A DNA stretch of 64,000 nucleotides from Betaproteobacteria bacterium Ga0077527 (GTDB taxonomy: Bacteria > Pseudomonadota > Gammaproteobacteria > Burkholderiales > SG8-41), in contig LNDW01000015.1 in assembly GCA_001464815.1 (NCBI GenBank), positions 248,001 to 312,000 on the forward strand. Direction: 5' to 3'. Positions 7,895 to 22,812 of this stretch are shown piece by piece (within the stretch, counting starts at the first letter, position 1; the number at the start of each line of letters is the position of its first letter). The translations under genes were made by a program, and so were the position numbers. The notes below the pieces were generated by a model. The model was not told the DNA's origin, made no database searches, and saw only the letters and a program-made list of their open reading frames with translations.

Positions 7895-8275
7895 GTGATG
7901 ACCACGGCTCCCGATACGCTCACCGAACCGCGCACCTCGGTGGAAATCCTGTCGTTCCGCATGTTCATGGACGAACTGCGCAACGCCACCCGCCAGCCTG
8001 CCGAACCCCGCGCCGCCAACCCGCTCGATGAAGCGGTGCAGGCGGTGCAGCGCAATCCCGCGCTGATCCAGGCGCGGCTGCTCACACGCATCCTCGGCGC
8101 CTTCGTCGGGCGCGGCGCCTCGTTCCGGCGTGCCGAAGTGGCCGCCTTCGACCGCGAACACCTGAACCTGCTTGCCGCGCTGATGCACTCGCATGAGGCG
8201 GGGCAGATCAGCCCCGCCGAGTGGACCCGCGCGGCAGACACCACCGATGCCGCCCAGCGCGAATTCGATTCCTGA
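7895..8275 (+). CDS. Hypothetical protein
   Basis: A 126-residue soluble, charged and mostly helical protein of no family I recognise. It has no signal peptide or membrane segment. Either GTG at 7895 or ATG at 7898 may start it. It follows the membrane-protein stop by only a few bases and ends 15 bases before the next gene, so the three are almost certainly cotranscribed. A central patch, ALIQARLLTRILGAFVGRG, could form an amphipathic helix. Confidence 0.6.
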   Translation: MMTTAPDTLTEPRTSVEILSFRMFMDELRNATRQPAEPRAANPLDEAVQAVQRNPALIQARLLTRILGAFVGRGASFRRAEVAAFDREHLNLLAALMHSHEAGQISPAEWTRAADTTDAAQREFDS

Positions 8276-8290
8276 GGCCCCGCACCCGCC

Positions 8291-8638
8291 ATGAGAAAAG
8301 GCAGCATCCTATTTACCGGCAGTTCCGGCCGCCAGTATTCATTCATGGTGTGGTCGCTCGACACCCTGTTCAAACCGATGGGCGGCGTTTATTTCGTGAC
8401 CGAACGCCGGGTGATCAAGGGCGCGCACCTGCGGCCCCGCCACAACCCCATTTTCATCGGCCAGACCGACAACCTCGCCAGCACCTTCAACGACAGCAAG
8501 CTGCCCGAGCGTTACATGGAATTCGGCGCCAACTGCCTGTGCGTGCACCTGCACGACGATGCCGGACAACGCGCCGACATCGAGAAGGACCTCCTCGGCG
8601 CCTACAGCACGGACTGCAACCCCAGCCGTCCGCTGTAA
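8291..8638 (+). CDS. GIY-YIG-like small protein, catalytically doubtful
   Basis: A 115-residue protein whose pattern fits the GIY-YIG fold. GGVYFVTER at about residues 31-39 stands for the GIY strand, and HNPIFIGQTDNLASTF at about 51-66 for the YIG strand. The tail ADIEKDLLGAYSTDCNP carries the glutamate and the terminal P-x-C-N-like element typical of small GIY-YIG proteins. The tyrosine of YIG is replaced by phenylalanine and the usual arginine after the YIG strand is not obvious, so nuclease activity is uncertain. It is the third gene of the small operon and is followed by a rho-independent terminator. Confidence 0.6.
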   Translation: MRKGSILFTGSSGRQYSFMVWSLDTLFKPMGGVYFVTERRVIKGAHLRPRHNPIFIGQTDNLASTFNDSKLPERYMEFGANCLCVHLHDDAGQRADIEKDLLGAYSTDCNPSRPL

Positions 8639-8663
8639 CACCCCGCGCCTCCAGCACCCCCAA

Positions 8664-8706
8664 CGCGCAAGGCGCCGCCCTTGCCGGGGCGGCGCCTTGC
8701 GCGTTT
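8664..8706 (+). terminator. Rho-independent terminator, 17-bp perfect stem
   Basis: The arms at 8664-8680 and 8687-8703 pair perfectly (17 bp) around a 6-base loop and are followed by TTT. It ends the 7.6-8.6 kb small-gene operon. Confidence 0.8.
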
Positions 8707-8758
8707 ACAATCCCTGCAGCACCCGACCGACATCGGGCGATTTGCCTCAATACAACTA

Positions 8759-8788
8759 TAACTAATTGATTTAATTGAGTAATTTATG
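8759..8788. repeat. AT-rich 30-bp motif, diverged copy D
   Basis: TAACTAATTGATTTAATTGA and then GTAATTTATG align with copies A-C but with more changes. The start codon of the lyase gene (8786) falls at its end. Confidence 0.4.
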
Positions 8789-10234
8789 AGCGACAGCGCA
8801 CACACCCTCGACATCAACGCCACCTTCCGCGGCGGCGGCCGTTCGATTGAATGGCTGGATGAAATCAACAAGGCCTGCATCGTCATGCTCGCCGAGACCG
8901 GCATCGTGCCGAAGGATGTGGCCAAGCGCATCGCCAGGGGCATCGCGCAGGTCATCGAAAACGAACGCACGGGTGAGAAGCGTACTTCAGCGGACTATCT
9001 GGACTACGAACCCCGCCTGATCGCCGTCGCCGGACAGGAAGCCTCGCGGCTGCACACCGGCCGCAGCCGGCAGGACCTGGCCTCGACCATTGCGCGGATG
9101 AACCTGCGCGACGGCCTGCTGCACACCATCGGCGCGCTGATCGCCGACCGCGAGAAACTGCTCAAGCGCGCGGAAGAACATATCGAAACCATCATCCCCG
9201 CCTACACCCACGGCGTGCAGGCGCAACCGACGACGTTTGCGCATTACCTGCTGGCCTTTGAATCCGCCCTCGCTCGCGCGACCGAGCGTCTGCAGCAGGC
9301 CTGGACGCGGGTGAATAAATGCCCGCTGGGCACGGCAGCGCTGGCGACCTCCAGCTTCCCGCTCGACCGGCACCGCCTGGCGGAGCTGCTGGGTTTTGAC
9401 GGCCTGGTCGAAAACGCCTACGACGCCAACCACCTCGCACCCATCGACAGCGCACTCGATGTCGCCAATGCCTATGCAATGACCGCGGTGCAGACCGGCA
9501 TGTTCGCGCAGGACCTGCACACCCAGTACGCCAACCCCACACCGTGGTTCATGCTTGGCAGCGGCGAACTCACCGGCACCAGCAGCATCATGCCGCAGAA
9601 GCGCAACCCCGCCGCCCTCGAACAGCTGCGCGCGCAGTCCAGCATCCTGTTGAGTGAAATGCAGACCATGACCTGGGTCTCGCACAACAACCGCACCGGC
9701 ATGTTCGATTACCGCATGTATGACCCGGTGCCCTATGCCCGCGCGCTGACCGTGTTCAAACTCTTCGGTAGCGTGGTCGATGCGGTGGTGGTCAACAAGG
9801 CGCGCGCGCTGGAAGAAGTGAACGCCGATTACTCCACCACCACCGAAATTGCCGACGCCCTGCTACAGAAAGCCGAAGTGCCCTTCCGCACCGGCCACCA
9901 TTTCGCGAGCAAGCTGACGGACTACGGCCGCGGCAAGGGCCTGAAGATCCACGAAATCCCCTACAGCGAAGCGCAACGGATTTACGAGGAACAGGCGAAG
10001 GACAAACTGCCGCTGACGGAAGCGGAATTCCGCGAGGTGATCAGTGCGGAATATATGGTGTTTGGGAGGAAGGGGTTGGGGGGGCCGCAAACGGAAGAAA
10101 TGAGGCGAATGGTTGACAATAAAAGTGCCGAAACGAGCACCAATTTGAATTGGCTAAAAATGCAGACCGGGATCCTTAAGCGATCGCAAATTACTAATGA
10201 GAATATGTTTTTGGCAGTTTCGGGCGAACCCTAA
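8786..10234 (+). CDS. Argininosuccinate-lyase-family enzyme with an AT-rich 3' end
   Basis: A 482-residue member of the fumarase/argininosuccinate lyase superfamily. It has HTGRSRQD near residues 90-97 and the catalytic-loop signature GTSSIMPQKRNP at 264-275. No arginine genes are adjacent, so it may act on another N-succinyl or amino-acid adduct. Codon use is GC-rich up to about residue 435. From roughly position 10090 the coding sequence becomes AT-rich to the end. The tail (NLNWLKMQTGILKR) still resembles a lyase C terminus, so a recombination junction inside the gene is likely. Its TAA overlaps the next gene's ATG (TAATG), suggesting translational coupling. Confidence 0.88.
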   Translation: MSDSAHTLDINATFRGGGRSIEWLDEINKACIVMLAETGIVPKDVAKRIARGIAQVIENERTGEKRTSADYLDYEPRLIAVAGQEASRLHTGRSRQDLASTIARMNLRDGLLHTIGALIADREKLLKRAEEHIETIIPAYTHGVQAQPTTFAHYLLAFESALARATERLQQAWTRVNKCPLGTAALATSSFPLDRHRLAELLGFDGLVENAYDANHLAPIDSALDVANAYAMTAVQTGMFAQDLHTQYANPTPWFMLGSGELTGTSSIMPQKRNPAALEQLRAQSSILLSEMQTMTWVSHNNRTGMFDYRMYDPVPYARALTVFKLFGSVVDAVVVNKARALEEVNADYSTTTEIADALLQKAEVPFRTGHHFASKLTDYGRGKGLKIHEIPYSEAQRIYEEQAKDKLPLTEAEFREVISAEYMVFGRKGLGGPQTEEMRRMVDNKSAETSTNLNWLKMQTGILKRSQITNENMFLAVSGEP

Positions 10235-10908
10235 TGGCCACCGCTTGGCCATCGATTACGCATTTGACCGCAGAAGCACTGTTGGTCGTTGATCTGCTTG
10301 ATCGATGTCAAGACTCTCTTTTTCCAGCAGAAGCCGTACTCACCCACAATGTTACTAAAGCGAGACTACGCGAATTAATGGCTGGGCGCAGTACTGCACG
10401 CCTTGCGCTCCAACTCTTCGGAATGGAGCCAGCGCCAATTCTTCAAACGAAATACGGAGCCCCCGCTTGGCCTCAAGGATTTTGCGGTAGCCTGAGCCAC
10501 AGCCATAAACACATTGCAGTACTACTTGCCCGTTCGTCTCATTTCACTTCCGTTGGAGTCGATATCGAAGACGGGCGGCCACTGGGCGCAGCGATTTCAA
10601 CAACGGTCGTAACTACGCGAGAATTGCAAGTAGTTAGTCGTGCAGGCTGGGAAGCCCTAGGAAGCACGGCCGAAGGCTTGGCTTTCAGCGCAAAAGAAGC
10701 CGTATTCAAATGCCAATTTCCAATCACGCTTGATACGTCGCTGGATTTCCTCGACGTAAGGCTTAAATGTGGAAAATTCGCGAATACTCTCGCAATCCAA
10801 ACTGTCGGCTCATCACGACCACGACTCACTGCAATTCAAAATCTTATTAATATTCATGCACTTAATTCATTTGGGGTAACTATTGTTTATGCATTGCTAG
10901 ATCGGTAA
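10234..10908 (+). CDS. 4'-phosphopantetheinyl transferase, Sfp/EntD type
   Basis: Transfers phosphopantetheine from CoA to a serine of a carrier protein. The 224-residue length and motifs fit: GRSTARLAL at 51-59, the substrate-loop GSLSHSHKHIAVLLA at 85-99, the magnesium motif GVDIED with D110 and E112, and the third motif FSAKEAVFK at 151-159 with E155. It opens the AT-richer island and is coupled to the lyase stop codon. The next gene encodes a small protein with a carrier-like DS motif that could be its substrate. No polyketide or peptide synthetase is in the window. Confidence 0.85.
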   Translation: MATAWPSITHLTAEALLVVDLLDRCQDSLFPAEAVLTHNVTKARLRELMAGRSTARLALQLFGMEPAPILQTKYGAPAWPQGFCGSLSHSHKHIAVLLARSSHFTSVGVDIEDGRPLGAAISTTVVTTRELQVVSRAGWEALGSTAEGLAFSAKEAVFKCQFPITLDTSLDFLDVRLKCGKFANTLAIQTVGSSRPRLTAIQNLINIHALNSFGVTIVYALLDR

Positions 10909-10959
10909 GGGAACATCACTGAAAATATTGTTTGATTATCAGACATAATAAGGTATTGT

Positions 10960-11355
10960 ATGTCTGGAAAGCAGACGAAAGGGTTCAGAATGGCAACCTC
11001 AAAATCGATGCTAACAGCCGATCAATTCGAACAACTTCTACCGACACTGATCAAGCGCCTGACCTCTGGTTTGGAGAATGAACTCCAAGACTGTGCCTTA
11101 CCGGAACTAGGCGAAGATCCAGGTTCCGATCTATGGAATCTGCCAACCGTCGACTCTAAGACGGTGTGCAAGCTATCTCCCATTGTGCAAGAACTGCTGG
11201 GGCGTCGACTTGAGCCCTCCTGGGTCCGCAAGGGTGGATACGAAAGTGTCGAAGCGGCAATCAACGATGTCGTTGCAAATATGAAAAAAGATTGCGTCGC
11301 AGGTTCACCACAGCCCGCGTCTGCAAAACCTTCAAAAACAGCAGTCACAGTATAG
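10960..11355 (+). CDS. Small protein, possibly a divergent acyl-carrier-like protein
   Basis: A 131-residue protein of no family I can name; a second ATG at 10990 may be the true start. The middle reads PTVDSKTVCKLSPIVQELLG with S66, and 33 residues later comes SVEAAINDVV. In acyl carrier proteins the phosphopantetheine serine sits in DSL, and a similar VQAAIDYI follows 31 residues later. The two segments align with few gaps, though lysine replaces leucine after the serine. Next to a phosphopantetheinyl transferase this suggests a carrier protein, but it is an inference. It ends 9 bases before the regulator gene; the 51-base gap before it is AT-rich and may hold an internal promoter. Confidence 0.55.
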   Translation: MSGKQTKGFRMATSKSMLTADQFEQLLPTLIKRLTSGLENELQDCALPELGEDPGSDLWNLPTVDSKTVCKLSPIVQELLGRRLEPSWVRKGGYESVEAAINDVVANMKKDCVAGSPQPASAKPSKTAVTV

Positions 11356-11364
11356 GAGGCCTCC

Positions 11365-11721
11365 ATGATTGACGAACGAACTCAATTGGCATTGCGCCTC
11401 AAGGAAGTGCGTGAATACCTTGGACTATCGCAGCAGGAAGTTGCCGAAGCATTGAATGTTCCTCGTTCCGCCGTATCGTTGCTAGAAAGTGGGCAACGCA
11501 GAGTGGATTCGGTGGAACTCAAAACGTTGGCGAAGATGTATCAGCGCCCAGTGGGGTTTTTCACTGGAGAGGAAGCCGCTACACCTCTTTTCGGCGATGT
11601 CGCAGTTCTAGCTAAACAAGCTTCGGCGTTATCGACTGAGGATCGGACTGAACTGCTTCGCTTCAGTGAGTTTCTTGCCCAACGATCACAATCGAAAGTA
11701 CGGAATGACGAGCCGACGTGA
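11365..11721 (+). CDS. XRE-family helix-turn-helix regulator
   Basis: A 118-residue Cro/CI-type DNA-binding protein. The helix-turn-helix covers about residues 12-50 (LGLSQQEVAEALNVPRSAVS, then LESGQRR). The C-terminal 60 residues are acidic and helical, as in antitoxin-like regulators that partner ImmA/IrrE peptidases. GGAGG lies just before the ATG. It overlaps the ImmA gene by 17 bases. By analogy with ImmR/ImmA pairs, the metallopeptidase may cleave this regulator to relieve repression of the operon. Confidence 0.85.
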   Translation: MIDERTQLALRLKEVREYLGLSQQEVAEALNVPRSAVSLLESGQRRVDSVELKTLAKMYQRPVGFFTGEEAATPLFGDVAVLAKQASALSTEDRTELLRFSEFLAQRSQSKVRNDEPT

Positions 11722-12700
11722 TGCTATTTTGAGCGGCGCTAGTCGCGCTGCTGAATTGCATACGGGACTAGGGTTGCGAAAGCGGCTTGCCGCTGGCGAT
11801 CGCCCCGTGGACGTTATGGACGTGATGCGGGAACTTGGACTTACGCTGCTGTTTCGCCCTCTGAACTCTCTGCTAGGTGCGTATCTGCCAGGTGCCGGAA
11901 CACCCGGTGTCTTGATTACTACACAACGAGATTTACACGTACAGCGATTTACTGCCGCTCATGAACTAGGACACCATGTCCTTCACCATATGGCCGCAAG
12001 CCTTGACACTGATGTGGGCTACGTTGGAAGGGGCGATCCTGGAAATTACGATAATCAGGAATTAGAGGCGGACTCATTCGCTGCTGAATTTCTCCTCCCG
12101 AAATGGCTAATTGTCGCTCATGCGAAGCGGCATCATTGGGGCAAGAGCGAGCTCAAGAACCCGGATACGGTATACCAATTATCTTTGCGTCTGGGTGCCA
12201 GCTATGCGGCAACTTGCTGGGCTCTTTTGTCGAACAATCTTATTGATCGTGCCACAGTGAATGCGCTTGTGAGCACACCACCAAAAACATGCAAGCAGCG
12301 AGCTATCCCGGACTTCCAACCAGAGTCTTGGCGACGAGACGTCTGGCTGCTTTCTGAGCACGACCGCGGTGTGCATGTGCTAGGAAATCCGGACGATTTG
12401 CTAGTTTTGACGCTCGAGGAACATGTCAGCAGCGGCTATATCTGGGACATAGCACCGATTACTACAGTCGGACTTCTGATAGACATTGATGATCGTCACG
12501 ACTTGGTTGATGGGGCAATCGGTGGCCCGGTAACTCGTCGAGTCGTGGCTCACGGCGCAGCGCAAGGCCATATTCGACTAGAAGAGCGCCGTCCTTGGTC
12601 AAAAGCCGACGAAGCGCACAGCATCTTCGAGATCGACTTGGCGATGATTGGAAGCCAGCCCGAAGGTTTGCCAAGCTGGGATCGCTTGATCGCTGCATGA
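11705..12700 (+). CDS. ImmA/IrrE metallopeptidase fused to a chagasin-like (I42) inhibitor domain
   Basis: A 331-residue two-domain protein. Residues ~60-190 are an ImmA/IrrE (COG2856) zinc peptidase with HELGHH at 86-91 and LEADSFAAEFLLP at 120-132. Residues ~205-315 have the three inhibitory loops of chagasin: SSGYIW near 242-247 (NPTTGYxW loop), GAIGG near 270-274 (GxGG loop) and RRPW at 295-298 followed by a beta-strand. Chagasins block papain-family C1 peptidases, and the next gene, overlapping by ATGA, encodes one. The start at 11705 overlaps the regulator gene by 17 bases; an upstream ATG at 11666 is less likely. I am sure of the peptidase and fairly sure of the inhibitor domain. Confidence 0.8.
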   Translation: MTSRRDAILSGASRAAELHTGLGLRKRLAAGDRPVDVMDVMRELGLTLLFRPLNSLLGAYLPGAGTPGVLITTQRDLHVQRFTAAHELGHHVLHHMAASLDTDVGYVGRGDPGNYDNQELEADSFAAEFLLPKWLIVAHAKRHHWGKSELKNPDTVYQLSLRLGASYAATCWALLSNNLIDRATVNALVSTPPKTCKQRAIPDFQPESWRRDVWLLSEHDRGVHVLGNPDDLLVLTLEEHVSSGYIWDIAPITTVGLLIDIDDRHDLVDGAIGGPVTRRVVAHGAAQGHIRLEERRPWSKADEAHSIFEIDLAMIGSQPEGLPSWDRLIAA

Positions 12701-13365
12701 CAATGCCGAAGCCAGCGGACCTGAGCGTTCTAATTGATCTCAGGGGCAAATGGAAATATGTTCGGGACCAAGGTAACCGCGGTTCCTGTATGGCCTGTGC
12801 ATCTAGTGACGCCAATATGCATGCGCATAATCTCGATCACCCCTTATCTGCTGAGTACCTACTCTTTCAAGCAGCGAAATATATGGCGGGAAACGACGTG
12901 ACAAAAGGCTTGACCTTCCACGCCGTGCAGACAGCATTGCGCGATTGGGGGCAGCCCCACGAAGATGAGTGGCCATACCAAATGATCATGCCGAATCCGT
13001 GGCTTCCTCCCGCGGTGACAACAGTTTGGTGCGCAAATTTAACGCTTGATTTGACACTGCAAGTGCCAGCAATTGTCACTCAAGTTAAATCCGGAAAACC
13101 AGTGATTTTGGGGATCAGATTATCCTCAGGATTCTGGGATGTTCAAGGACCGTTGTACAGAGTTTCACCTGCCGGCCCTGGGTTTGGTGGTCATGCAGTA
13201 CTGGCTGTTGGTCTTAGTGTTGACGCTAGCGGTGAAGAGTTTTTACTTGTTCGAAATAGCTGGGGAGAAGGATGGGGGCTAATGGGGTATGGATGGCTAC
13301 CAGTACGTTATCTAGCAGACAAATTGATCAATTTTTGCACGACGGAACCTTGTGTAAAACCTTAG
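12697..13365 (+). CDS. Papain-like C1 cysteine peptidase, no propeptide
   Basis: A 222-residue papain-fold peptidase. Q25 and C31 lie in VRDQGNRGSCMACASS, H166 in GFGGHAVLAVG and N187 in LLVRNSWGEGWG, a complete Q-C-H-N catalytic set. There is no signal peptide and no room for an inhibitory propeptide, so the enzyme would be active in the cytoplasm unless held in check. Its ATG overlaps the stop of the preceding gene, which carries a chagasin-like C1-peptidase inhibitor domain. This implies a matched toxin-inhibitor or effector-inhibitor pair. The cellular target is unknown. Confidence 0.88.
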   Translation: MTMPKPADLSVLIDLRGKWKYVRDQGNRGSCMACASSDANMHAHNLDHPLSAEYLLFQAAKYMAGNDVTKGLTFHAVQTALRDWGQPHEDEWPYQMIMPNPWLPPAVTTVWCANLTLDLTLQVPAIVTQVKSGKPVILGIRLSSGFWDVQGPLYRVSPAGPGFGGHAVLAVGLSVDASGEEFLLVRNSWGEGWGLMGYGWLPVRYLADKLINFCTTEPCVKP

Positions 13366-13374
13366 AGGAGTTGC

Positions 13375-14196
13375 TTGATGACGCCGCTATCTGATGCAAC
13401 GCGAGCAGGGGCTTGGCTCCAAGCAGCGCGAGTCCTCCTTGATAAGGGGGATCGAATTTACAATTTAATTCTTGAAATCCAGCAGCCAAGCTCAGCAACA
13501 ACAGCATCTCGTGCAATTGAAAAACAGGTTGACGATTTTCTGCGTGCGCACGGATGCCAGCCTAACCATACAGTGGCAGAAACTATTTTTCCGGCTACAG
13601 AATATGCACGCGGCGGACTCGATGCAGTGCTGGCTTACCCAACCACAGTGTATCCCGTCATTAAGCCAGAGCCGGCGAATCGCTGGGGCACCTACGCCCT
13701 ACGAATTACTGAGCGAAAATGTTCAGACGGCTCGACATTCAAGCCACTAGAGTTCCTGATCGCAAAACTACGGAAACAGCTCGCACTGCAGGGAACGAAG
13801 CGCGCCGCCTATGAACTTGACCCGATGGATGAGCCTCTTGATCTAAAACTTTACGAAGCCGATGTCGATCGCAATAACGCCGTTGCAGGACAGTGCTTAA
13901 GTCATCTGAGTTTTAAGCTTGGACCCAATCGCGAACTTTATCTTACAGCTCTGTATCGTTATCAATGGTTTGTACAGAAGGCGCTAGGTAACCTGCTCGG
14001 TCTTGCTCGCTTGCAAAGCTGTATTGCGCGTGAAATCGGTGTGCCCGTTGGGCCATTGGTTTGCCACGCAACCCTTGCGGTTCTGGAGGACAAAAAGGTT
14101 CAAAAAGTACCCTGGAACCCTGCCGCTTTACCAAAGTTAATTGAAAGTTGTGAGCAATGTATGGCTGCCACGGAAACCGGTGAGGTGGCCGCATGA
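13375..14196 (+). CDS. Thymidylate-synthase-like protein
   Basis: A 273-residue protein that I read as a divergent thymidylate synthase fold. N-terminal elements ETIFPATEYARGG and RWGTYALRI match the TS pattern. The catalytic region GQCLSHLSFKL keeps the cysteine; LTALYRYQWFVQKALGNLLG keeps the arginine and the nucleotide-binding asparagine; VGPLVCHATLAVLED keeps a histidine. TS-fold enzymes add one-carbon units to dUMP; phage relatives make 5-hydroxymethyl-dUMP. The neighbouring MazG-like and 5-hmdU-kinase-like genes favour a modified pyrimidine product. Its last bases overlap the MazG-like start (ATGA). Reaction not proven. Confidence 0.68.
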   Translation: MMTPLSDATRAGAWLQAARVLLDKGDRIYNLILEIQQPSSATTASRAIEKQVDDFLRAHGCQPNHTVAETIFPATEYARGGLDAVLAYPTTVYPVIKPEPANRWGTYALRITERKCSDGSTFKPLEFLIAKLRKQLALQGTKRAAYELDPMDEPLDLKLYEADVDRNNAVAGQCLSHLSFKLGPNRELYLTALYRYQWFVQKALGNLLGLARLQSCIAREIGVPVGPLVCHATLAVLEDKKVQKVPWNPAALPKLIESCEQCMAATETGEVAA

Positions 14197-15296
14197 ATCT
14201 GAGCGAATACCAAAATAAGGCTTATGCTACTGCGAAAATCGACTGGAAAAGCCCCAGAGGACGTAACGTACCAATCTTCGGCGTAGTAGGTGAACTCGGC
14301 TCTGTATTCACAGAATTGAAGAAAACACTGCGCGATGGCACTGCTTACACTGAAGGTTTGGGGAATGTCGCCGAAGAGTTTGGTGACGTACTTTGGTATC
14401 TGGCCGCAATCGCTTCGCGTACGGGCCTCTCTCTTGAGGAGCTTGCAGGTAAGCCAATAAAAATTGGCCGCGTGCAGCAGCCGTATGCATACGTCTATGA
14501 TCTTGTTGGAGCTTTCTCTGAGCTCGTTCGAATACTAAGTCGTACTGGGTTCGAGCCAAAGGGAAAAGATCGCGTGCTTTTAGTTACCACTTTGCGCCGG
14601 GCGGTACGCACTACGTTGGTTGCTTTGCAGCACGAAAAGCTGGATTTAAACAAGCTGCTTACCTACAACATCCGAAAAGTTCGAGGTATGTTTGGCCCAG
14701 ATAAGATTCGACCAGCACCGTGCCGCGATGGAAAATTTCCGGACTACGAACAATTACCACGCAAAATGTCGGTGCAATTCCTACAGAGAATTCGCAGTCA
14801 GGATCGAGTGGAGGTTGTCTTGCGCGTCAATGAACTCAACATTGGTGACCGCCTGACTGACAATGCCGCCAAAGACGATGGCTATCGATTTCACGACGCA
14901 TTCCACTTTGCATATGCAGCAGCCTTAGGCTGGTCTCCAGTCATACGAGCGACGTTCCGCTGCAAGCGAAAAAAGGATCCAAAAATTGACGAGGTTCAAG
15001 ATGGCGCGCGTGCCGCGATCATCGAAGAGGCTGTATCGCAGACAGTCTTTGACTATGCCCGAGATCACTCAATGCTCAAGGGGCTTGATCGGATTGATCA
15101 CGGAATTTTGAGAGTGGTGCAGCGCATGGTGCGCGGACTAGAGGTTGAACGCTGTGGACTTTGGGAATGGCAACACGCAATTCTCATAGGATTCAAAGCA
15201 TTCCGCGAGTTACGCGCGAACAATGGCGGCTGGTTAAAACTTGATGCAGAAACACGCTCGCTGACGTTCACCCGCGACGGGTCGGCATCAGGATAA
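14193..15296 (+). CDS. MazG-like nucleotide pyrophosphohydrolase with extra C-terminal domain
   Basis: A 367-residue protein. Residues ~1-85 resemble the all-alpha MazG/NTP-pyrophosphatase domain: GVVGELGSVFTELKK, then NVAEEFGDVLWYLAAIA. The E-x-x-D half of the metal site (EFGD) is kept, but the first E-x-x-E is changed to E-L-G-S, so one metal ligand seems lost. Residues ~225-367 form a second conserved block (DGYRFHDAFHFAYAAALGWS, later DEVQDGARAAIIEEAVS) that I associate with a MazG-related family. It would control the dNTP pool used with the thymidylate-synthase-like partner. It is the last gene of the island operon and converges on the kinase-like gene. Confidence 0.72.
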   Translation: MNLSEYQNKAYATAKIDWKSPRGRNVPIFGVVGELGSVFTELKKTLRDGTAYTEGLGNVAEEFGDVLWYLAAIASRTGLSLEELAGKPIKIGRVQQPYAYVYDLVGAFSELVRILSRTGFEPKGKDRVLLVTTLRRAVRTTLVALQHEKLDLNKLLTYNIRKVRGMFGPDKIRPAPCRDGKFPDYEQLPRKMSVQFLQRIRSQDRVEVVLRVNELNIGDRLTDNAAKDDGYRFHDAFHFAYAAALGWSPVIRATFRCKRKKDPKIDEVQDGARAAIIEEAVSQTVFDYARDHSMLKGLDRIDHGILRVVQRMVRGLEVERCGLWEWQHAILIGFKAFRELRANNGGWLKLDAETRSLTFTRDGSASG

Positions 15297-16326
15297 GGGC
15301 TGGAGGCACATCAGAAGTATTCAATTCCCATTTTGGCGGGAACCATGCCGGCGGAGATGGTTGTTGTGGAGAAAAGCGTTGCTTTATTCGGACTCTACCG
15401 CTGCACCCGAGCACTTCGGGATGCGCGACGCGCGCATACTTGCTGATTTCGCAAAAAATATTCTGACAGTCAATTAGTTGGAGTGACCTTCCCCATAAGG
15501 ACCTAAAAACAAGATCACGCATCTTGAGCTCGACCTCTTGCCGGTCCGCGACCCAACGTATGACATCGGCCTCATTGTATTCGCCGAGATCTGAGAAACA
15601 TTTTCGGATGCCATCACGCGCGCCAGGTCCCGCCTCGACAAATTCCATCTCACTAAAAGAAAAATGATCCGAGTAGTTGATATCAGTGACAAATTGGTAG
15701 GCCAAAAATGGCCCTATACTGGGGTAAGACAATAACAACAAGAATGCGTCGCCCATCGATTCGACATTAGCCAATCTCTCAAAAAGATTGTCTTTAAGCA
15801 TATTCGTAAGAAGCTGCAGATGCATGCGGTGCTTACGTGTCTGACGAATGTCCTTCGTGCCGCTCGGCATGATGTAGGCGGCAGAGTAAATTGCCGCTTT
15901 GCTTGCCAATGCTCGCTCAAGCACAACGTCGATTTTATGTATATCGAAGGTTTTTTCACAAATATCGCCCAGAGTATTCTCAAGCAACTCCCAAGTTTCT
16001 ATTTTGTTGAAGAGCTTGAAAAGCAATATCCGAAGTACTGTATCTCGAAGGCCATATTTCTGTTTGTATATGACGTTTCGAATTAAATATTGGCTGGTCC
16101 GGTCTGCCGCTCGGTACACATTCGTGAATTTGTACTCACGCAGCACAGCGTCAGTCGTCCATGGACCGCGTTCACCCCGTATTCTTCGGAAGTAGACATT
16201 TTGACGCTCCGTGGCAAATCGCCAATACGTGTCAAAAACAGCGGTCGGCGTGGGCTCCTTGCGTCGCACCAATATCGAAGCGGAGGTCTTTATGAGTTTT
16301 GCCGTTGAGTGCACCTTGTCCAACAC
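15268..16326 (-). CDS. 5-hmdU DNA kinase / thymine pyrophosphorylase-like protein
   Basis: A 352-residue protein matching the phage family that acts on 5-hydroxymethyluracil in DNA (5-hmdU DNA kinase, helical-domain family, also called the alpha-glutamyl/putrescinyl thymine pyrophosphorylase clade). Motifs: YWRFATERQNVYFRR at 34-48, YKFTNVYRAADRTSQYLIRN at 65-84, YPSIGPFLAYQ at 201-211, AGPGARDGIRKCF at 232-244 and LQLIDCQNIFCEISKYARV at 282-300. In phages it prepares hmdU for hypermodification. Here it lies on the opposite strand, its 3' end overlapping the MazG-like gene by 29 bases. The gene is AT-rich like the island. Confidence 0.75.
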   Translation of the reverse strand: MLDKVHSTAKLIKTSASILVRRKEPTPTAVFDTYWRFATERQNVYFRRIRGERGPWTTDAVLREYKFTNVYRAADRTSQYLIRNVIYKQKYGLRDTVLRILLFKLFNKIETWELLENTLGDICEKTFDIHKIDVVLERALASKAAIYSAAYIMPSGTKDIRQTRKHRMHLQLLTNMLKDNLFERLANVESMGDAFLLLLSYPSIGPFLAYQFVTDINYSDHFSFSEMEFVEAGPGARDGIRKCFSDLGEYNEADVIRWVADRQEVELKMRDLVFRSLWGRSLQLIDCQNIFCEISKYARVAHPEVLGCSGRVRIKQRFSPQQPSPPAWFPPKWELNTSDVPPALILMPTRRG

Positions 16327-16330
16327 GAAT

Positions 16331-16641
16331 CGACGCCCCTTTTTTCAAGCACGTTAGATGTAATTAATCACTGGTCACTGGGGTGATATAACTCACTATG
16401 CCTGAGAAATACCATTCAGGCGGCACCTAATGTCAGCTTCTTCACATAGAAGCCCCTAAAACAGGGCAACACAAGCCTCATGAAAAGGAATAAGTAAATT
16501 TCATAGACTAGAAAAGGTATTCTGCGATTTTAGTACATATCTTCTATGAAATGGTACACAACCGGGGTCGATTTCTTTTTGAAAAAATGCGCACAATTGG
16601 GGATAGATCACATTCCCCATTAGCAGCAGCCTTTCCTAAGC
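16331..16641. other. AT-rich gap at the right edge of the island
   Basis: No gene is seen. It must carry the promoter of the minus-strand kinase-like gene. A 10-bp perfect inverted repeat, ATTTCATAGA at 16498-16507 and TCTATGAAAT at 16543-16552, could be an operator. High GC resumes at about 16640 with the hydrolase remnant. No integrase, tRNA or clear attachment repeat is visible. Confidence 0.5.
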
Positions 16642-16883
16642 ATGCCCACCCTCAAAGACCTCTCCATCCTGATCCACCCCGGCCTCAACGACTCCGGCCC
16701 GGATCACTGGCACACCCACTGGGAACAGGCCTTCCCCGATTTCGTGCGCGTGCAGCAGGCAGACTGGGACCATCCGGGCTATGACGCATGGATCGCAAAA
16801 TGCCCTTCACCAAGCCGGAGGGCGTGCTGATCGATGTGAAGGTCGGCGCCATCGACGCGCCCTGCATTCCGCTGCCGGGTTGA
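16642..16883 (+). pseudogene. Hydrolase 5' end joined to a cupin 3' end
   Basis: Positions 16642-~16790 are a near copy of the first 50 codons of the RBBP9-like hydrolase at 17921 (HPGLNDSGPDHWHTHWEQAF). From about 16800 to 16883, in another frame, the sequence ends VKVGAIDAPCIPLPG, closely matching the C terminus of the cupin at 20826 (VKVGAIDAPFIALPN). Everything between has been deleted. It marks where a second hydrolase-cupin copy once stood, next to the island border. Confidence 0.75.
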
Positions 16884-16987
16884 GCGAGACCCGGACGCAG
16901 GCTTACCCTGTTGCATGCATGCAATCGATTGATTCCAGCGTTCCGCAACCCCGCATTCCGCTTCCACCTGAAACTTCCGGACCTCCG

Positions 16988-17899
16988 ATGACTGCAAACG
17001 ATACCCACACCCCTCAACCGTCCACCGGCAAACTGGTATTCCTCCACTATGATCAGGCCGGGCTGGATGCCGTCTATAACCAGTCGGCCTATGCGCCGCA
17101 TTCGGAACATGTACGCACGCGGATGTCTCTCGCCAGCGCAGCAGTCCGGGCCAGGATCGGGCCACCGCAAAGACATGCCTATGGCGATGCCCCTATCGAA
17201 GGCCTGGATGTCTATCCGGCAGCGGAACACAACGCCCCGATTATCGTATTCATCCACGGTGGCGCATGGAGAAGGGGGCTCGCCAGCCAGAACGCCTTCG
17301 CGGCGGAAATGTTCGTCAAGGCCGGCGCCCACTTCATCGTCCCCGATTTTTCCTGGGTGCAGGATGCCGCGGACAGCCTGAGGACGCTGGCGGACCAGGT
17401 TCGCCGGTCGCTGATCTGGGTCTACCGGAATGCCGGGAAACTGGACGCGGATCAGAGTCGAATCTACCTCGTCGGCCATTCGTCCGGCGCTCACCTGGCC
17501 GCCGTGGCACTGACCACGGACTGGCAGAAGGACTACGACCCCGCCCTCCCCGAAAACTTCATCCGCGGCGCCGTCCTGTGCAGCGGAATGTTCGACCTGC
17601 ACCCGGTCAGGCTGTCTTCCAGAAGTTCTTACGTGAAATTCGACGACGACCTTGAGTTCAAGCTGAGCCCGCAGCGCCACCTTGAACGCATTGGCGCACC
17701 GATCGTGCTGCTGTACGGCACACGGGAAACACCGGAGTTCCAGCGGCAGTCCATCGACTTTGACAAAGCTCTGCGGGACTCCGGAAAATCCTCCCGGCTG
17801 GTCGTGGCACAGGAATATGACCATTTCGAACTCAAGGAAACGCTCGCGAATCCGTACGGCCCTTACGGCCAGGCCGTGATGTCGCAGATTTTTCCGTAA
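16988..17899 (+). CDS. Alpha/beta hydrolase, kynurenine formamidase/esterase-like
   Basis: A 303-residue alpha/beta hydrolase. The oxyanion motif FIHGGAWRRG at 88-97 and the nucleophile elbow GHSSGAHLA with S165 place it with the KynB-like/HSL arylformamidase-esterase group. The histidine of DHFELKE near the end is the likely third triad member. No signal peptide is seen. A longer start at 16919 is possible but adds only a disordered proline-rich leader. It lies 21 bases before the RBBP9-like hydrolase gene and probably shares its transcript. No tryptophan-catabolism gene is nearby, so the substrate is open. Confidence 0.82.
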   Translation: MTANDTHTPQPSTGKLVFLHYDQAGLDAVYNQSAYAPHSEHVRTRMSLASAAVRARIGPPQRHAYGDAPIEGLDVYPAAEHNAPIIVFIHGGAWRRGLASQNAFAAEMFVKAGAHFIVPDFSWVQDAADSLRTLADQVRRSLIWVYRNAGKLDADQSRIYLVGHSSGAHLAAVALTTDWQKDYDPALPENFIRGAVLCSGMFDLHPVRLSSRSSYVKFDDDLEFKLSPQRHLERIGAPIVLLYGTRETPEFQRQSIDFDKALRDSGKSSRLVVAQEYDHFELKETLANPYGPYGQAVMSQIFP

Positions 17900-17920
17900 A
17901 CGATGACCGGGCCCCGCCGC

Positions 17921-18493
17921 ATGCCCACGCGCAAGGATTTCTCGGTACTGATCCATCCCGGCCTCAACGGCTCCGGCCCGGATCACTGGCATACGCACTG
18001 GGAACAGGCCTTCCCCGATTTCGTGCGGGTGCAGCAGGCGGACTGGGACCATCCGGTCTATGACACGTGGGCCGCGACGCTGACGGATTACGTACTGCGA
18101 TCACCGAAGCCGGTGGTGCTGGTGCCGCACAGCGCGGGCACCACGCTGGTGATGAAGTGGTCCTTCGAACAACCCGAGGCCGTGAAGAAGGTGGCCGGCG
18201 TGTTTTTTGTGGCCCCCACTGATCGCGACCGGCCGATGCCGCCGGGCACCGTCAGCCCGCTGCAGGGTTTCGGCGGCATGATCATGAAGCGCCTGCCCTA
18301 CCCCAGCGCGGTGGTCGCGGGGCGCAATGATGACCGCGTCAGCTTTGAGCGTGCACAGGCCTTCGCGCAGGCCTGGGGCTCAACGTTCTTCGACGGCGGC
18401 ATGAATGGCCATCTAGGTTCGGATGCAAAACTCGGCGTGTGGCCGGAAGGGCTGGTTTACTTCGGGCAGTTTCTGGCTGCGCTTCGCGCGTAG
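17921..18493 (+). CDS. RBBP9/YdeN-family serine hydrolase
   Basis: A 190-residue small alpha/beta hydrolase. The nucleophile lies in VPHSAGTT, the acid is probably in AGRNDDRV and the histidine in GGMNGHLGSD. The opening LIHPGLNGSGPDHWHTHWE is a family signature. I chose the ATG at 17921 because the truncated duplicate at 16642 keeps the same MPT-KD start; an ATG at 17903 adds six residues. It is probably cotranscribed with the upstream esterase. The biological substrate of this family is largely unknown. Confidence 0.83.
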   Translation: MPTRKDFSVLIHPGLNGSGPDHWHTHWEQAFPDFVRVQQADWDHPVYDTWAATLTDYVLRSPKPVVLVPHSAGTTLVMKWSFEQPEAVKKVAGVFFVAPTDRDRPMPPGTVSPLQGFGGMIMKRLPYPSAVVAGRNDDRVSFERAQAFAQAWGSTFFDGGMNGHLGSDAKLGVWPEGLVYFGQFLAALRA

Positions 18494-18550
18494 CTGCAGT
18501 CATCAGGCTGCTTTACCCGGGTCACGCATCAAGCCAATTCCGCAGCTTGC

Positions 18551-18578
18551 CGCAGTGTAAACCATGGATTACACTGCG
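18551..18578. promoter_or_regulatory. Palindromic operator over the toxin start
   Basis: CGCAGTGTAA (18551-18560) is mirrored exactly by TTACACTGCG (18569-18578) around ACCATGGA, which contains the ATG at 18564. Position and symmetry fit an autoregulatory operator of the toxin-antitoxin pair. Confidence 0.7.
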
Positions 18579-18872
18579 CTGGTGATCGAAATCCGCGAAA
18601 CGCAGGAATTCTCCAGCTGGCTGACGTCCTTGCGCGATGCCCGCGCAAGGACGCGGGTGCAGGCGCGCATTCTCCGTCTGCGCTACGGCAACCCCGGTGA
18701 TGTGAAGCCGGTGGGTGAAGGGGTTTCCGAAATGCGCATTGATTACGGCCCCGGTTATCGGGTTTATTTCGTCAAGCGCGGCGCGCTGATGGTGATCCTG
18801 CTGGCGGGCGGCGCCAAACCGACGCAGGACAAGGACATCAAAACCGCGCTGAAGCTGGCGCGCATGCTTTAG
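18564..18872 (+). CDS. RelE/HigB-type toxin of a type II TA module
   Basis: A 102-residue RelE/ParE-superfamily protein of the addiction-module killer group, expected to be a ribosome-dependent mRNA endonuclease. Family pattern: VIEIRETQEFSSWLTSLRD, then RILRLRYGNPGDVKPVGEGV, MRIDYGPGYRVYF, and a C-terminal LLAGGAKPTQDKDI. The typical family start would be at VIEIR, so GTG at 18582 may be used instead of ATG 18564. A 28-bp palindrome covers the ATG. The antitoxin gene follows after 9 bases, the toxin-first order of HigBA-like modules. Confidence 0.87.
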   Translation: MDYTALVIEIRETQEFSSWLTSLRDARARTRVQARILRLRYGNPGDVKPVGEGVSEMRIDYGPGYRVYFVKRGALMVILLAGGAKPTQDKDIKTALKLARML

Positions 18873-18881
18873 GAGTTCATC

Positions 18882-19184
18882 ATGGCCAAGAAACTGACTA
18901 CACGCCCTTATGACGCAGCGACTTACCTGAGAACCGAGCAGGAGTGCGCGCTGTATCTGCAGGCCGCGATTGACGAATCAGACGGCGATCCGGCGCTGGT
19001 GGTTGGCGCACTCGGCGATATCGCCCGTGCCCGCGGCATGATGCAACTCGCGCGCGACACCGGCCTCACCCGCGAGGGGCTGTACAAGGCACTGTCGCCG
19101 GACGGCAACCCGAGTTTTGCGACGGTGATGAAAGTCTGCAAGGCGCTGGGCTTGAAGCTGCATACCGAAGCGGTCGAGACCTGA
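18882..19184 (+). CDS. HTH antitoxin of the toxin-antitoxin module
   Basis: A 100-residue antidote protein of the HigA-like addiction-module family. The N-terminal half (RPYDAATYLRTEQECALYLQ) is the helical toxin-binding part. The C-terminal half has a helix-turn-helix: MMQLARDTGLTREGLYKALS, then GNPSFATVMKVCKALGLKL. AGGAG precedes the ATG. It should bind and neutralise the toxin and, with it, repress the promoter through the palindrome at 18551-18578. Confidence 0.87.
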   Translation: MAKKLTTRPYDAATYLRTEQECALYLQAAIDESDGDPALVVGALGDIARARGMMQLARDTGLTREGLYKALSPDGNPSFATVMKVCKALGLKLHTEAVET

Positions 19185-19214
19185 TCATCGATACCCGCTG
19201 ATAATCGCTAAACC

Positions 19215-19452
19215 GGGTCGGACCACCGCAAGCTGTTGATACAGAAAACCAAGCGTGAAAATTCAGGTCGTTTGAAAGCCTTAGAGCTGTGTTTTTGGTG
19301 GCCAAAACGCAACTCCAAGGATCAGGCCAACCGCGATACGAGAGATGCTTGGACGCGTGTTTTCGGCCTCAAGAGTGGCGTTCCAAGGATTAAAAACGCC
19401 GCTTTCCAGGCAAGAAATTCAGTGGATTCATTTACTTCGCGTGGTCCGACCC
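19215..19452. mobile_element. 238-bp MITE-like element with terminal inverted repeats
   Basis: GGGTCGGACCAC at 19215-19226 is matched perfectly in reverse by GTGGTCCGACCC at 19441-19452, with partial pairing further inward (AAG/CTT). The interior has no open gene and is less GC-rich than its surroundings. No target-site duplication is clear. This is the form of a non-autonomous transposable element. It fills most of the gap between the antitoxin gene and the next gene; the remaining bases show nothing else. Confidence 0.5.
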
Positions 19453-19523
19453 TGCGGGCAACCTGCAGGTAAGAGCTCCCTTGAACCGCTCCGCTGTGCA
19501 TCCCCGGTGTGCGTCCCCAGGGT

Positions 19524-20078
19524 CTATCCGCGAACCAGCCGCGCCAATTCCGCGCCCTCCACCAGCCTCACGCCCTTCTGCCGGGCGAAGGCCCGTGCCT
19601 GATCCGTCAGTTCACCCGCCACCACATAGCGGCATTCCCGCGCCTCGCGCTGCTCGCCTTCTGCCGCCAGGTCCCTGATCGGCTCAATGCCGGTGCGCGC
19701 CGCCTTCCAGCGCCGCGCACTCACCAGCGTCAGGTAACCCATTTTTTCCAGCTCGAGATCGGCCACGCCGTCCACACGCCGCACGGTGTAACCCTCGGCC
19801 TTGTAGCCCCGCTCCAGCGCCTGCGCAAATTCCTCCCAGGACAGGCTGCGGGTTTGCTCCAGCGTTTTGGCCACCCGCGCGCCATTGGGCCCGAAGGCCT
19901 GCTGCCAGGCGGCCACCAGGGTGATGACGATGAAGGGGAAGGCGCAAAACAGCGCATAGGCCCAGGGCACAAAGAGCTGCGCCAGCACAAAGGTGACCAG
20001 CGCGGCCAGCGCGCTCACCCACCAGCTGCGGCGCATCAGCATTGCAAAAATCGAGTTCTCGGGTATCTTCCACTGCAT
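19524..20078 (-). CDS. Membrane-anchored Mrr-like restriction endonuclease-fold protein
   Basis: A 184-residue protein with two hydrophobic helices at about residues 17-53 (WWVSALAALVTFVLAQLFV and YALFCAFPFIVITLVAAW). A C-terminal domain (~80-184) resembles the Mrr-cat/restriction-endonuclease fold: ALERGYKAEGYTVRRVDGVA, DLELEKMGYLTLVSARRW, then VAGELTDQARAFARQKGV. The usual D-(x)-E-x-K metal site is degraded (DLELEK ... SARRW), so nuclease activity is uncertain. The start at 20078 (MQWKIP) is preferred. It diverges from the methyltransferase gene with only 73 bases between starts. Confidence 0.7.
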   Translation of the reverse strand: MQWKIPENSIFAMLMRRSWWVSALAALVTFVLAQLFVPWAYALFCAFPFIVITLVAAWQQAFGPNGARVAKTLEQTRSLSWEEFAQALERGYKAEGYTVRRVDGVADLELEKMGYLTLVSARRWKAARTGIEPIRDLAAEGEQREARECRYVVAGELTDQARAFARQKGVRLVEGAELARLVRG

Positions 20079-20829: not shown

Positions 20830-21506
20830 ACCTCAACCACGACTTCCGCCTGCGCGTCGTGCAACACGCCGCCGATGCCACCTGGACCCCCTCCCCGCTC
20901 CCCGGCGTAACCCGGCGCATGCTGGACCGGGTCGGCGGTGAAGTCGCGCGCGCGACCAGCATCGTGCGTTACGCCGCCGGCTCGCGCTTTGATGCGCACG
21001 GCCATCCCGGCGGTGAAGAGATCATGGTGCTAGAGGGCGTGTTCTCGGATGAACACGGTGATTACCCGGCCGGCACCTATCTGCGCAATCCGCCGGGCAG
21101 CCGCCATGCGCCGTTTTCCGCCGGGGGCTGCACGCTGTTCGTGAAACTGTGGCAGTTCGCGGCGGATGACCTGGAGCCCGTGCGCATCGATACCCGCAAC
21201 GCCGCCTTCCGCCCCGGGCTGGTGCCGGGCCTCACCGTGCTGCCGCTGCATGAGCACGCGGGCGTGAGCACGGCGCTGGTGCGCTGGGCGCCGCAGACGC
21301 AATTCAATATGCACATGCACCCCGGCGGCGAGGAGATCCTCGTGCTCGAAGGCGTTTTCCGCGACGAGGACGGCGAATACCCCGCCGGCAGCTGGCTGCG
21401 CAATCCGCGCTGGAGCCGCCACACGCCTTATACCGGCGCCGAGGGCGCGTTGATTTATGTGAAGGTCGGCGCCATTGATGCGCCGTTCATTGCCCTGCCA
21501 AACTAG
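20826..21506 (+). CDS. ChrR-like bicupin protein
   Basis: A 226-residue protein with two cupin domains. The first has HGHPGGEEIMVLEG near residue 60 and the second HMHPGGEEILVLEG near residue 164; each gives the His-x-His...Glu metal set. The layout matches the cupin part of ChrR-type anti-sigma factors without the N-terminal zinc-binding helical domain, so it is more likely a metal-dependent enzyme or sensor. The ATG overlaps the methyltransferase stop. Two deletion remnants of this gene occur at 16800-16883 and 22672-22812. Confidence 0.82.
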   Translation: MNLNHDFRLRVVQHAADATWTPSPLPGVTRRMLDRVGGEVARATSIVRYAAGSRFDAHGHPGGEEIMVLEGVFSDEHGDYPAGTYLRNPPGSRHAPFSAGGCTLFVKLWQFAADDLEPVRIDTRNAAFRPGLVPGLTVLPLHEHAGVSTALVRWAPQTQFNMHMHPGGEEILVLEGVFRDEDGEYPAGSWLRNPRWSRHTPYTGAEGALIYVKVGAIDAPFIALPN

Positions 21507-21625
21507 GTAAAAACTTGTGCGCCGCAAAAACTGCCGCCACATCCAACAAAACGCTCGCTGAACACTTATCTAAGCAATACCTTAAACTGCATCTGCTGTG
21601 TGCATTCTGTCACGGAAGGAATGTC

Positions 21626-22468
21626 ATGCGTAGATTAGGTCTTCTCCTGCTTTGCCTAATGTTTTTCACTCCGGCTTTTTCTACGGAAGTGAAACTCCCT
21701 GTTCGCCCGGTATACCAACAAACCCCGGTTTGGTGCTGGGCCGCCGTAGGCTCCATGGTTTTCGATTACTACGGCGTAGCCAATCTAAACTGCGCTGGTA
21801 ACCAGCAATGCGCCGTAGTGGCTTTGCTACACCCCAAGTGTGATGCTCTGTGCTTCAGCTGTGTCATACCAGCCGGCAGCTTGGCGGTAATGAACAACAT
21901 GCTGAAAAACTACCCCGCATTCGCGAGAAAAATGAGCGGTATTGATACAAGAATCAGTACCCAACCAATTACCAAACCCCTGTCACTTCAAGAATTGAAG
22001 CAACAGATCGATAAAAAAATGCCTGTTGTTGCAGGCATTTCACCAAGTGGATATAAATCGGCGGGCGTGTCGGAGCACGTTGCCCTAATTGTTGGATACG
22101 AGGGCGACAATATTATTGTCAATGATCCATTCCCTTTTCAGATCGCTTTCACAACCGATCCTTACTTGAAAGCCGGCGCCTCCAAGCTTGATCAAGAGGG
22201 GCAATACAAGATTGCCTATAGCCGATTCGTGAATGATCTCCAGTGGAAAGAAACGGTTTACGACATAAAGTGTAATGGTAAGGATTGCCGAAATGGCGGA
22301 CCTGTATTACCGCCATCATGCGGCCAGTCGTGCCAAACAGTCGCTGGAACATGCGGGCCTTTCATGCATCAACCCCCACGGCCGCTTGGCGGGCCATGTC
22401 ATTGCCAGTTTCCTTTGCCTTACCCGCCATACAGCGTCGTTTATCAGGGGCGGGTAAGCGATCTTTAG
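21626..22468 (+). CDS. Secreted AvrRpt2-like (C70) papain-fold peptidase
   Basis: A 280-residue protein with a signal peptide (MRRLGLLLLCLMFFTPAFS). It is followed at once by PVYQQTPVWCWAA, with Q31 and C37, the signature of the AvrRpt2/papain-like C39-C70 group. The histidine is in GVSEHVALIVGY and the third residue in IIVNDPFP. The C-terminal ~45 residues are cysteine- and proline-rich. GGAAGGA lies six bases before the ATG. The gene is clearly less GC-rich than its neighbours, a sign of transfer. Likely exported; target unknown. Confidence 0.8.
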   Translation: MRRLGLLLLCLMFFTPAFSTEVKLPVRPVYQQTPVWCWAAVGSMVFDYYGVANLNCAGNQQCAVVALLHPKCDALCFSCVIPAGSLAVMNNMLKNYPAFARKMSGIDTRISTQPITKPLSLQELKQQIDKKMPVVAGISPSGYKSAGVSEHVALIVGYEGDNIIVNDPFPFQIAFTTDPYLKAGASKLDQEGQYKIAYSRFVNDLQWKETVYDIKCNGKDCRNGGPVLPPSCGQSCQTVAGTCGPFMHQPPRPLGGPCHCQFPLPYPPYSVVYQGRVSDL

Positions 22469-22671
22469 TCTGGGCGTAAGCACATCACTGCAGCAACACC
22501 AAACGCATTCGGTCGAATTTTTCAAGGCTTGAATGGCAAAGGGGCCTGGCGCAAGGAGGCCACCGTCAAGCCTGCCCCTTTTGCGTTGTTGCCGGCCACG
22601 TCGCACGAACAACTCCGCCCACCTCTATTTCGCATCACACCCGCAGCAAGGTCACCCCTTAGAATTACACG

Positions 22672-22812
22672 ATGAACCTCAACCACGATTTCCGGTTGCG
22701 TGTGGTGTGGCACGCCGCCGAGGGCGCGCTGATTTACGTGAAGGTCGGCGCCATCGATGCGCCGTTCATGCGGCTGCCGGGCTCAACACGTCAGCTGCAG
22801 CCTGCGCCATAA
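22672..22812 (+). pseudogene. Cupin gene reduced to its two ends
   Basis: The first 16 codons match the start of the cupin at 20826 (MNLNHDFRLRVV), then the frame jumps directly to its last 20 codons (EGALIYVKVGAIDAPF). The join falls where the intact gene has GCCGCCGA and GGCGCCGAGGG, so a short-homology deletion explains it. A 46-codon frame remains. About 200 bases before it hold no recognisable gene. Confidence 0.8.

Follow-up and report, generated by a model that had tools for sequence, protein, structure and literature searches.

A mobile bacterial island that joins an ImmA-chagasin protein and a C1 peptidase to thymidylate-synthase-like and glycosylase-fold proteins: a candidate anti-invader system

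Phages that hypermodify thymidine work through 5-hydroxymethyldeoxyuridine (5-hmdU), 5-phosphomethyl-dU (5-PmdU) and amino-acid transfer. The accessible part of one source describes 5-HMUDK as a 5-hmU DNA kinase (PMC6457204). In the available portion of the DefensePredictor report (PMC13092281), thymidylate-synthase (TS) and 5-hydroxymethyluracil-kinase (5hmdUk) domains are newly validated in anti-phage units in E. coli, with dNMPk also among the domains of validated units. The accessible sections of PMC13373217 and PMC10904395 report that CapP and the related PprI are proteases activated by single-stranded DNA (ssDNA) that cut their repressors, and that CapH together with CapP controls immune operons. 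Here we analyse an island of eight genes in a 64-kb stretch of DNA from Betaproteobacteria bacterium Ga0077527 (contig LNDW01000015.1), the whole of which is called the window below. The island encodes a 4'-phosphopantetheinyl transferase (PPTase), a carrier-like protein, an XRE repressor, an ImmA/IrrE metallopeptidase fused to a chagasin (I42) domain, a papain-family (C1) peptidase, a TS-like protein (P0006), a MazG_C protein and a PF18723 protein (P0008). Judged from sequence, it may be a mobile, DNA-damage-gated, abortive system against invaders (phage or plasmid), with a caged-protease arm and a pyrimidine-base arm under one switch; we give this reading a probability of about 0.42.

Recurrence of the gene set

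Relatives of the island proteins were found on plasmids of alpha- and betaproteobacteria, Streptomyces, Nostoc and the archaeon Haloarcula. P0006 has relatives in 21 plasmids, 13 of them typed conjugative, and P0008 likewise in 21. At locus level we examined 14 of the 21 plasmids with TS-like matches, and 24 plasmid regions were read for neighbours, one of them without annotation. In the phylum, 5 of 398 genomes have PF18723, and in the order 4 of 399 have the TS-like family; both counts include the island's own genome.

A profile scan of 37 loci (numbered with L) gave 27 with TS-like genes. These hold XRE in 25, ImmA in 25, the carrier in 23, MazG_C in 21, C1 in 16, PF18723 in 13, a UDG-superfamily protein in 11 and an Sfp-type PPTase in 3 cases; AcpS-type PPTases are annotated in L014, L018, L020, L021 and L030, and a dCTP deaminase in L014, L018, L021 and L029. 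The profiles were trained on many of the counted loci, so the counts are not blind. Without the window and the six loci fetched through PF18723 (L007, L008, L020, L021, L072 and L074), XRE and ImmA are each present in 18 of the remaining 20, and the slot occupied by PF18723 or UDG is filled in 17. Exceptions were kept in all counts, namely L017 (a lone TS-like stretch), L063 (TS-like and MazG_C near a contig end), L071 (neither PF18723 nor UDG) and L008 (at a contig end).

Viral loci served as controls. Among those fetched through C1 (the best 80 of 502), profile searches at E 1e-6 found XRE in two and no TS-like, MazG_C, PF18723, UDG, carrier, ImmA or PPTase genes. Among those fetched through PF18723 (the best 80 of 353), a TS-like gene is present in three (L072, L073 and L074); besides these, ImmA appears in L076, C1 in L098 and a weak MazG_C in L117 and L137. 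Five viral rows with stop codons were excluded from alignment A9. The association of the genes, which the preliminary description had wished to see checked, is not due to chance, since like genes in nearly like order recur in unrelated hosts and the C1-fetched viral loci lack nearly all of them; its view of the island as one coherent system is supported. In viral contigs, TS-like genes were found only at L070/L073 (one contig), L071, L072 and L074. The last, a 48-kb IMG/VR contig, encodes carrier, XRE, ImmA-I42, C1, TS-like and PF18723 proteins, from which the system may also ride on phages or prophages. Some loci have defence-type neighbours, including Shedu, AbiEii-family genes, caspase-family proteins, SIR2 and ABC-three-component proteins; together with XRE-ImmA control and mobility, they make the conflict or defence role first proposed for the island plausible.

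A putative metallopeptidase switch and a putatively caged protease

The XRE and ImmA proteins form a pair of CapH/CapP type. In PADLOC, the best match of ImmA is capP (1.1e-17), while XRE matches capH at 3.9e-10 and is outscored there by RmrA (1e-12). The HExGH motif is conserved in 25 of 25 ImmA proteins and reads HELGH in the window. A motif scan that allowed up to three mismatches located a palindromic site, TGTYYGAWWWTCRRACA, upstream of the carrier in 14 of 15 C1-type loci, with no mismatch in the window. Since the motif itself had been derived visually from these upstream stretches, the count is partly circular. No second equally good site was seen in 13 of the 14 loci, with two in L033 (one strand was scanned, and in the window positions 8001-20000 only), and this uniqueness is better evidence for an operator than the 14/15 count. 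The motif is absent from L012 and from four of five type-B loci, and a different palindrome, GTAAGATTWTCTTAC, occurs in five of nine ImmA-bearing loci without C1 (L007, L016, L020, L021 and L071). A general scan for inverted repeats was uninformative, as shuffled sequences often scored as well. Given where the site lies in the window (Table 1), the PPTase gene is upstream of, and therefore outside, the unit that the predicted operator would control.

The ImmA protein of the window matches Pfam I42 below that family's own cut-off (Table 1). Among relatives, Pfam I42 (E 0.01) is found in 13 of 15 ImmA proteins that have a C1 neighbour, in sharp contrast to 0 of 6 that have none. The chagasin GYxW motif separates the two groups completely (16/16 against 0/9), and the 16 include the protein of L074, which lies outside the alignment used for the profile. 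The I42 part shows the GYxW loop and mostly the RPW loop, both of them present in the window. On the protease side, the catalytic residue columns of the window's C1 peptidase hold Cys31, His166 and Asn187; His and Asn are invariant in 15 of 15 relatives and Cys nearly so, the row of L032 beginning after it. From these sequences we infer that the I42 domain may hold the C1 protease, and the early suggestion of a protease with its inhibitor is backed by co-distribution.

The same co-distribution, the plasmid location and the operator would also be expected of a plasmid addiction (toxin-antitoxin) module in which C1 would act as toxin and ImmA-I42 as antitoxin, with the nucleotide genes carried along as passengers. 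We consider such a module distinctly improbable, because nine loci hold ImmA, XRE and TS-like genes without C1, and a two-gene unit needs no conserved TS-like, MazG_C and base-protein genes.

A proposed pyrimidine arm and its exchangeable base protein

P0006 has no match in Pfam, and its match to TIGR03283 is far below NCBI's cut-off. Its AF2 model is of low confidence (pLDDT 63) and matches TS structures (best E 2.1e-7, TM about 0.5); 49 of the 50 listed structural matches are thymidylate synthases by title or series, the remaining one being 9iqc, a monooxygenase with dCMP and FAD. Cys173 (catalytic) and Asn205 (pyrimidine-reading) are invariant in 16 of 16 TS-like relatives. An Arg 11 residues ahead of the Asn, the arrangement of TS, is present in the C1-type proteins and absent from most others. 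Model matches, TIGR03283 and the two invariant residues thus bear out the earlier assignment of P0006 to the TS superfamily. Against 50,697 phage records, P0006 gave no tblastn match at E 0.01, and no PHROG family at E 0.1, and sequence similarity does not mark it as a phage dUMP hydroxymethylase. A single ordinary ThyA is encoded elsewhere in the host genome. The two plasmids of Rhizobium ruizarguesonis (L014 and L034) both have the TS-like gene split into two open reading frames (ORFs), perhaps a sign of decay there.

The MazG_C protein has an N-terminal MazG domain below cut-off (0.024) and matches PHROG 229 at 3.6e-36 over nearly its whole length; single-sequence tblastn in phages recovered only its MazG domain, covering no more than 26% of the protein in the 10 rows listed out of 47. 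For the PPTase, the motifs GVDIE and FSAKEAVFK were read by eye. The 121-residue protein encoded next to it gives no family match when searched alone. Its relatives have the Ser of a DS-type motif as their sole invariant column (20/20), their family profile matches acyl-carrier-protein chain structures (6e-5), and Pfam PP-binding is found in only 4 of the 20; through these relatives, the protein is supported as acyl/peptidyl-carrier-like. A PPTase, a carrier and a TS-like protein resemble a small biosynthetic set, and the island could then make a nucleoside natural product on the carrier. That is very improbable: a Pfam scan of the eight proteins found no adenylation or condensation domain among them, and XRE-ImmA control and mobility are better suited to a conflict system.

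PF18723 is exchangeable. Either a PF18723 or a UDG-superfamily protein is present in 24 of the 27 TS-like loci, and the two never occur together (0/27). The predicted fold of P0008 resembles the HhH DNA glycosylases, with a phage 5-PmdU glycinyltransferase as best match (8z2n, PUGT of phage PaMx11); profile searches of P0008 against the PDB gave nothing useful. The earlier label of P0008 as 5-hmdU-kinase-like is misleading: by Pfam, P0008 has no P-loop domain and none of the eight proteins a P-loop kinase domain, the predicted fold is glycosylase-like, and PF18723 is in Pfam only the 'helical domain' of the 5-HMUDK name. On the evidence of Pfam and predicted fold, we rejected P0008 as a kinase by itself. 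Its relatives occur in 416 phage records, the closest in LuckyBarnes (34% identity over 82%), and one phage relative is annotated as an alpha-glutamyl/putrescinyl thymine pyrophosphorylase. As to the alternative occupant of the slot, active sites of the UDG superfamily are marked by GQDPYH or GEAPG. Pfam UDG is found in 8 of 10 of the UDG-type slot proteins at E 0.1; none of the ten has either motif, and RDLGYRGGRRTG and RHPSYGG are invariant instead (10/10). In two Sphingomonadales plasmids (L023 and L024), PF18723 genes adjoin exonuclease/dnaQ, close to dnaE.

Synthesis of hypermodified thymidine is unlikely as a function common to the family, because a UDG-superfamily protein replaces PF18723 in 11 of 27 loci. 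The idea of a phage-like core is borne out in part: it fits PF18723 and, by profile, MazG_C, and fails for the TS-like protein. A phage origin of the whole core is rejected for the TS-like protein; as XRE, ImmA, C1, PF18723 and MazG_C all have phage relatives, the rejection is a partial one.

The phage relatives of P0008, including the annotated pyrophosphorylase, its predicted structural similarity to the glycinyltransferase and the many conjugative plasmids among the carriers of the genes would suit self-protection, with the island placing a modified thymidine in the DNA of host or plasmid and so escaping restriction as phages do. We regard this as quite unlikely, since a P-loop kinase domain is missing from the eight proteins, the UDG-type protein takes the slot in those 11 loci, and a protease with its inhibitor is hard to explain by it. 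Alternatively, TS-like, MazG_C and PF18723 or UDG proteins could make or read a modified pyrimidine alarm, with C1 as the effector here and TIR or patatin proteins elsewhere. Four loci (L019, L025, L027 and L028, on plasmids of Gloeothece, Sinorhizobium, Parabacteroides and Natronomonas) indeed have PF18723 genes close to TIR genes and lack both this TS-like family and ImmA; L019 has a patatin-type gene there as well. Burroughs et al. moreover proposed a nucleotide-centric class of conflict systems in 2015, as cited in the accessible part of PMC13092281. Such a signalling role nevertheless appears unlikely to us, as Pfam recognises no SLOG, CARF or SAVED sensor domain among the eight proteins, and a UDG-superfamily protein in the slot points to DNA bases rather than free nucleotides. 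A thymidylate synthase is annotated in L025 too, and the island's TS-like profile missed it.

Under the favoured DNA-damage-gated, abortive reading, DNA damage or ssDNA during invasion would activate ImmA, which would cleave XRE and derepress the operon. The chagasin domain would keep the C1 protease caged until activation or turnover of ImmA frees it, and uncontrolled proteolysis would then stop the cell. The pyrimidine arm would run alongside: MazG_C, joined in some loci by dCTP deaminase, and the TS-like protein would produce or channel a 5-substituted dUMP, and that uracil-type base would be flipped out of DNA and excised or tagged by the glycosylase-fold protein. Damage of this kind to replicating DNA would yield ssDNA that feeds back to the switch. 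Least certain of all is the part of the phosphopantetheine carrier, on which an acyl or aminoacyl group might be loaded, destined either for the base or for the protease. Were this true, one protein would be both DNA-damage sensor and protease cage in immunity, phosphopantetheine carrier proteins would enter defence, and there would be a reason for bacterial plasmids to bear relatives of phage thymine-hypermodification proteins. With two families in the slot, the base arm can be probed directly by asking whether both attack the same uracil-type base.

Layout, insertion site and relation to described systems

All eight genes of the preliminary description were found where it had placed them (Table 1). 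The island spans about 10090-16640 and is seated in the 3' end of an argH-like, argininosuccinate-lyase-like (ASL) gene. Its limits had been drawn at 10234..16326, which is correct for the gene block; the true start is at about 10090 within the argH-like gene and the end at about 16560-16640. GC content per kb is 0.48-0.53 across 10001-17000 and 0.61-0.71 in most remaining kb of the window, confirming the island as AT-richer than its surroundings. The largest gap (81 bp) separates the PPTase stop from the carrier ATG and contains the operator-like palindrome. The XRE gene then begins at 11365 after the carrier stop at 11355, and its own stop overlaps the ImmA start. ATGA overlaps join ImmA to C1 and TS-like to MazG_C, the TS-like gene starts at 13378 (or at TTG 13375) after the C1 stop at 13365, and the MazG_C stop overlaps that of the convergent PF18723 gene.

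Table 1 Features of the island and its edges in the window.
Feature	Coordinates	Strand	Remarks
Argininosuccinate-lyase-like (ASL, argH-like) gene P0009	8786..10234	+	insertion target, not a system component
Replacement 3' end of ASL gene, brought by island; left edge	10090..10234	+	C-terminal tail common with L006
Sfp-type 4'-phosphopantetheinyl transferase (PPTase)	10234..10908	+	Pfam 4PPT_N 7e-17, ACPS 1e-7
Palindromic operator-like site TGTTTGATTATCAGACA	10929..10945	.	0 mismatches to TGTYYGAWWWTCRRACA
Acyl/peptidyl-carrier-like protein	10990..11355	+	alternative start 10960; invariant Ser in relatives
XRE-family repressor	11365..11721	+	HTH_3 3e-11
ImmA/IrrE (CapP-like) metallopeptidase fused to chagasin I42 domain	11705..12700	+	M78 7.8e-12, I42 1.2e-4
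Chagasin (I42) part of ImmA protein, residues 231-309	12395..12631	+	Pfam stretch
Papain-family (C1) peptidase	12697..13365	+	C1 1.7e-12; catalytic residues present
Divergent TS-superfamily (TS-like) protein P0006	13378..14196	+	TIGR03283 6.5e-7
MazG_C protein with weak N-terminal MazG domain	14193..15296	+	PF18722 6.7e-72
PF18723 protein P0008, DNA-glycosylase-like predicted fold, possibly 5-PmdU-glycinyltransferase-like	15268..16326	-	PF18723 1e-105
Right edge	16557..16791	.	homology to L006 stops at 16557

A Burkholderiales metagenome-assembled genome (L006) holds the same block, homologous over 8786-16557, between unrelated flanks. Five out of five same-genus genomes examined have the ASL gene, and none has the TS-like gene. 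Their DNA homology to the window ends at 10089 in four and at 10101 in the fifth, and the C-terminal ASL tails of the three that were translated differ from each other and from that of the window. Further copies of the ASL 3' end lie downstream in two genomes, G608 (84 bp) and G742 (55 bp); no right-hand copy was found in the window. By self-comparison, the 5' end of the hydrolase gene at 17903 recurs at the right edge as an 88.8% copy (16640-16791). Genome G580 has about 180 bp between the end of the ASL homology and a hydrolase remnant, with no cargo gene there. A second ArgH-like gene (33% identity) is encoded elsewhere in the host genome. We read the argH paralogue (8786-10234 in the window; also L064-L067 and L069) as a probable insertion hotspot, each occupant bringing its own ASL end. 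ASL was rejected as a component of the system, though inside the block common with L006, because it is present in all five same-genus genomes, which lack the TS-like gene, and because the homology breaks off within its 3' end. The mobility originally claimed for the island is supported by this hotspot, the plasmid relatives and the share of conjugative plasmids among them. A search of the window for tRNA genes found none. Elsewhere in it, two adjacent small ORFs at 18564-19184 (102 and 100 aa) resemble a HigB/HigA-type toxin-antitoxin pair by eye, and a second GC dip (0.57-0.58) covers 21001-23000.

The full gene set was not found described in the literature searched; part of it may be in Iyer 2013 and Burroughs 2015, and the accessible parts of PMC10853773, PMC7824862 and PMC5512222 hold nothing on the full set. 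Since domain names in the available portion of the DefensePredictor report overlap with those of the island, and the whole set was not found, the island is a candidate variant of nucleotide-centred defence, its putative protease cage and its carrier not found described in that literature. That it represents a new class of immunity, in which a DNA-damage-sensing metallopeptidase is both switch and chagasin cage and is coupled to a carrier-dependent pyrimidine-base pathway with a glycosylase-fold attacker, is conceivable but doubtful.

The comparison with the validated DefensePredictor units is by domain name, and TS and 5hmdUk are the names shared with the island. As far as the available text goes, no carrier, PPTase or C1 protease is named with TS or 5hmdUk, and which domains share a unit is not stated; a blastn search of 20,395 E. 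coli records with the island region 12697-16326 found no match. The predicted systems of its Fig. 6F share the names aGPT-Pplase, MazG, MazG-C, UDG and HTH; there, in the same portion of the source, an M15 peptidase is named, C1 protease, carrier and PPTase are not, and domain sharing per system is unstated. With phage thymidine hypermodification, the island has in common the PF18723 protein and perhaps, by prediction, its glycinyltransferase-like fold; unlike the phage pathway, it has a TS-like protein without phage match and no P-loop kinase, and a UDG type can replace PF18723. Like CapH and CapP, regulators of CBASS and other immune operons according to the accessible part of PMC13373217, it sets an XRE repressor beside an ImmA/IrrE metallopeptidase; unlike them as described there, the ImmA protein of C1-type loci bears a chagasin domain and the pair sits inside the operon. 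Finally, the GYxW and mostly RPW loops and the C1 catalytic residues liken it to known chagasin and papain-family inhibitor-protease pairs, from which it differs in that the inhibitor is fused to a metallopeptidase and is encoded in one operon with its presumed target.

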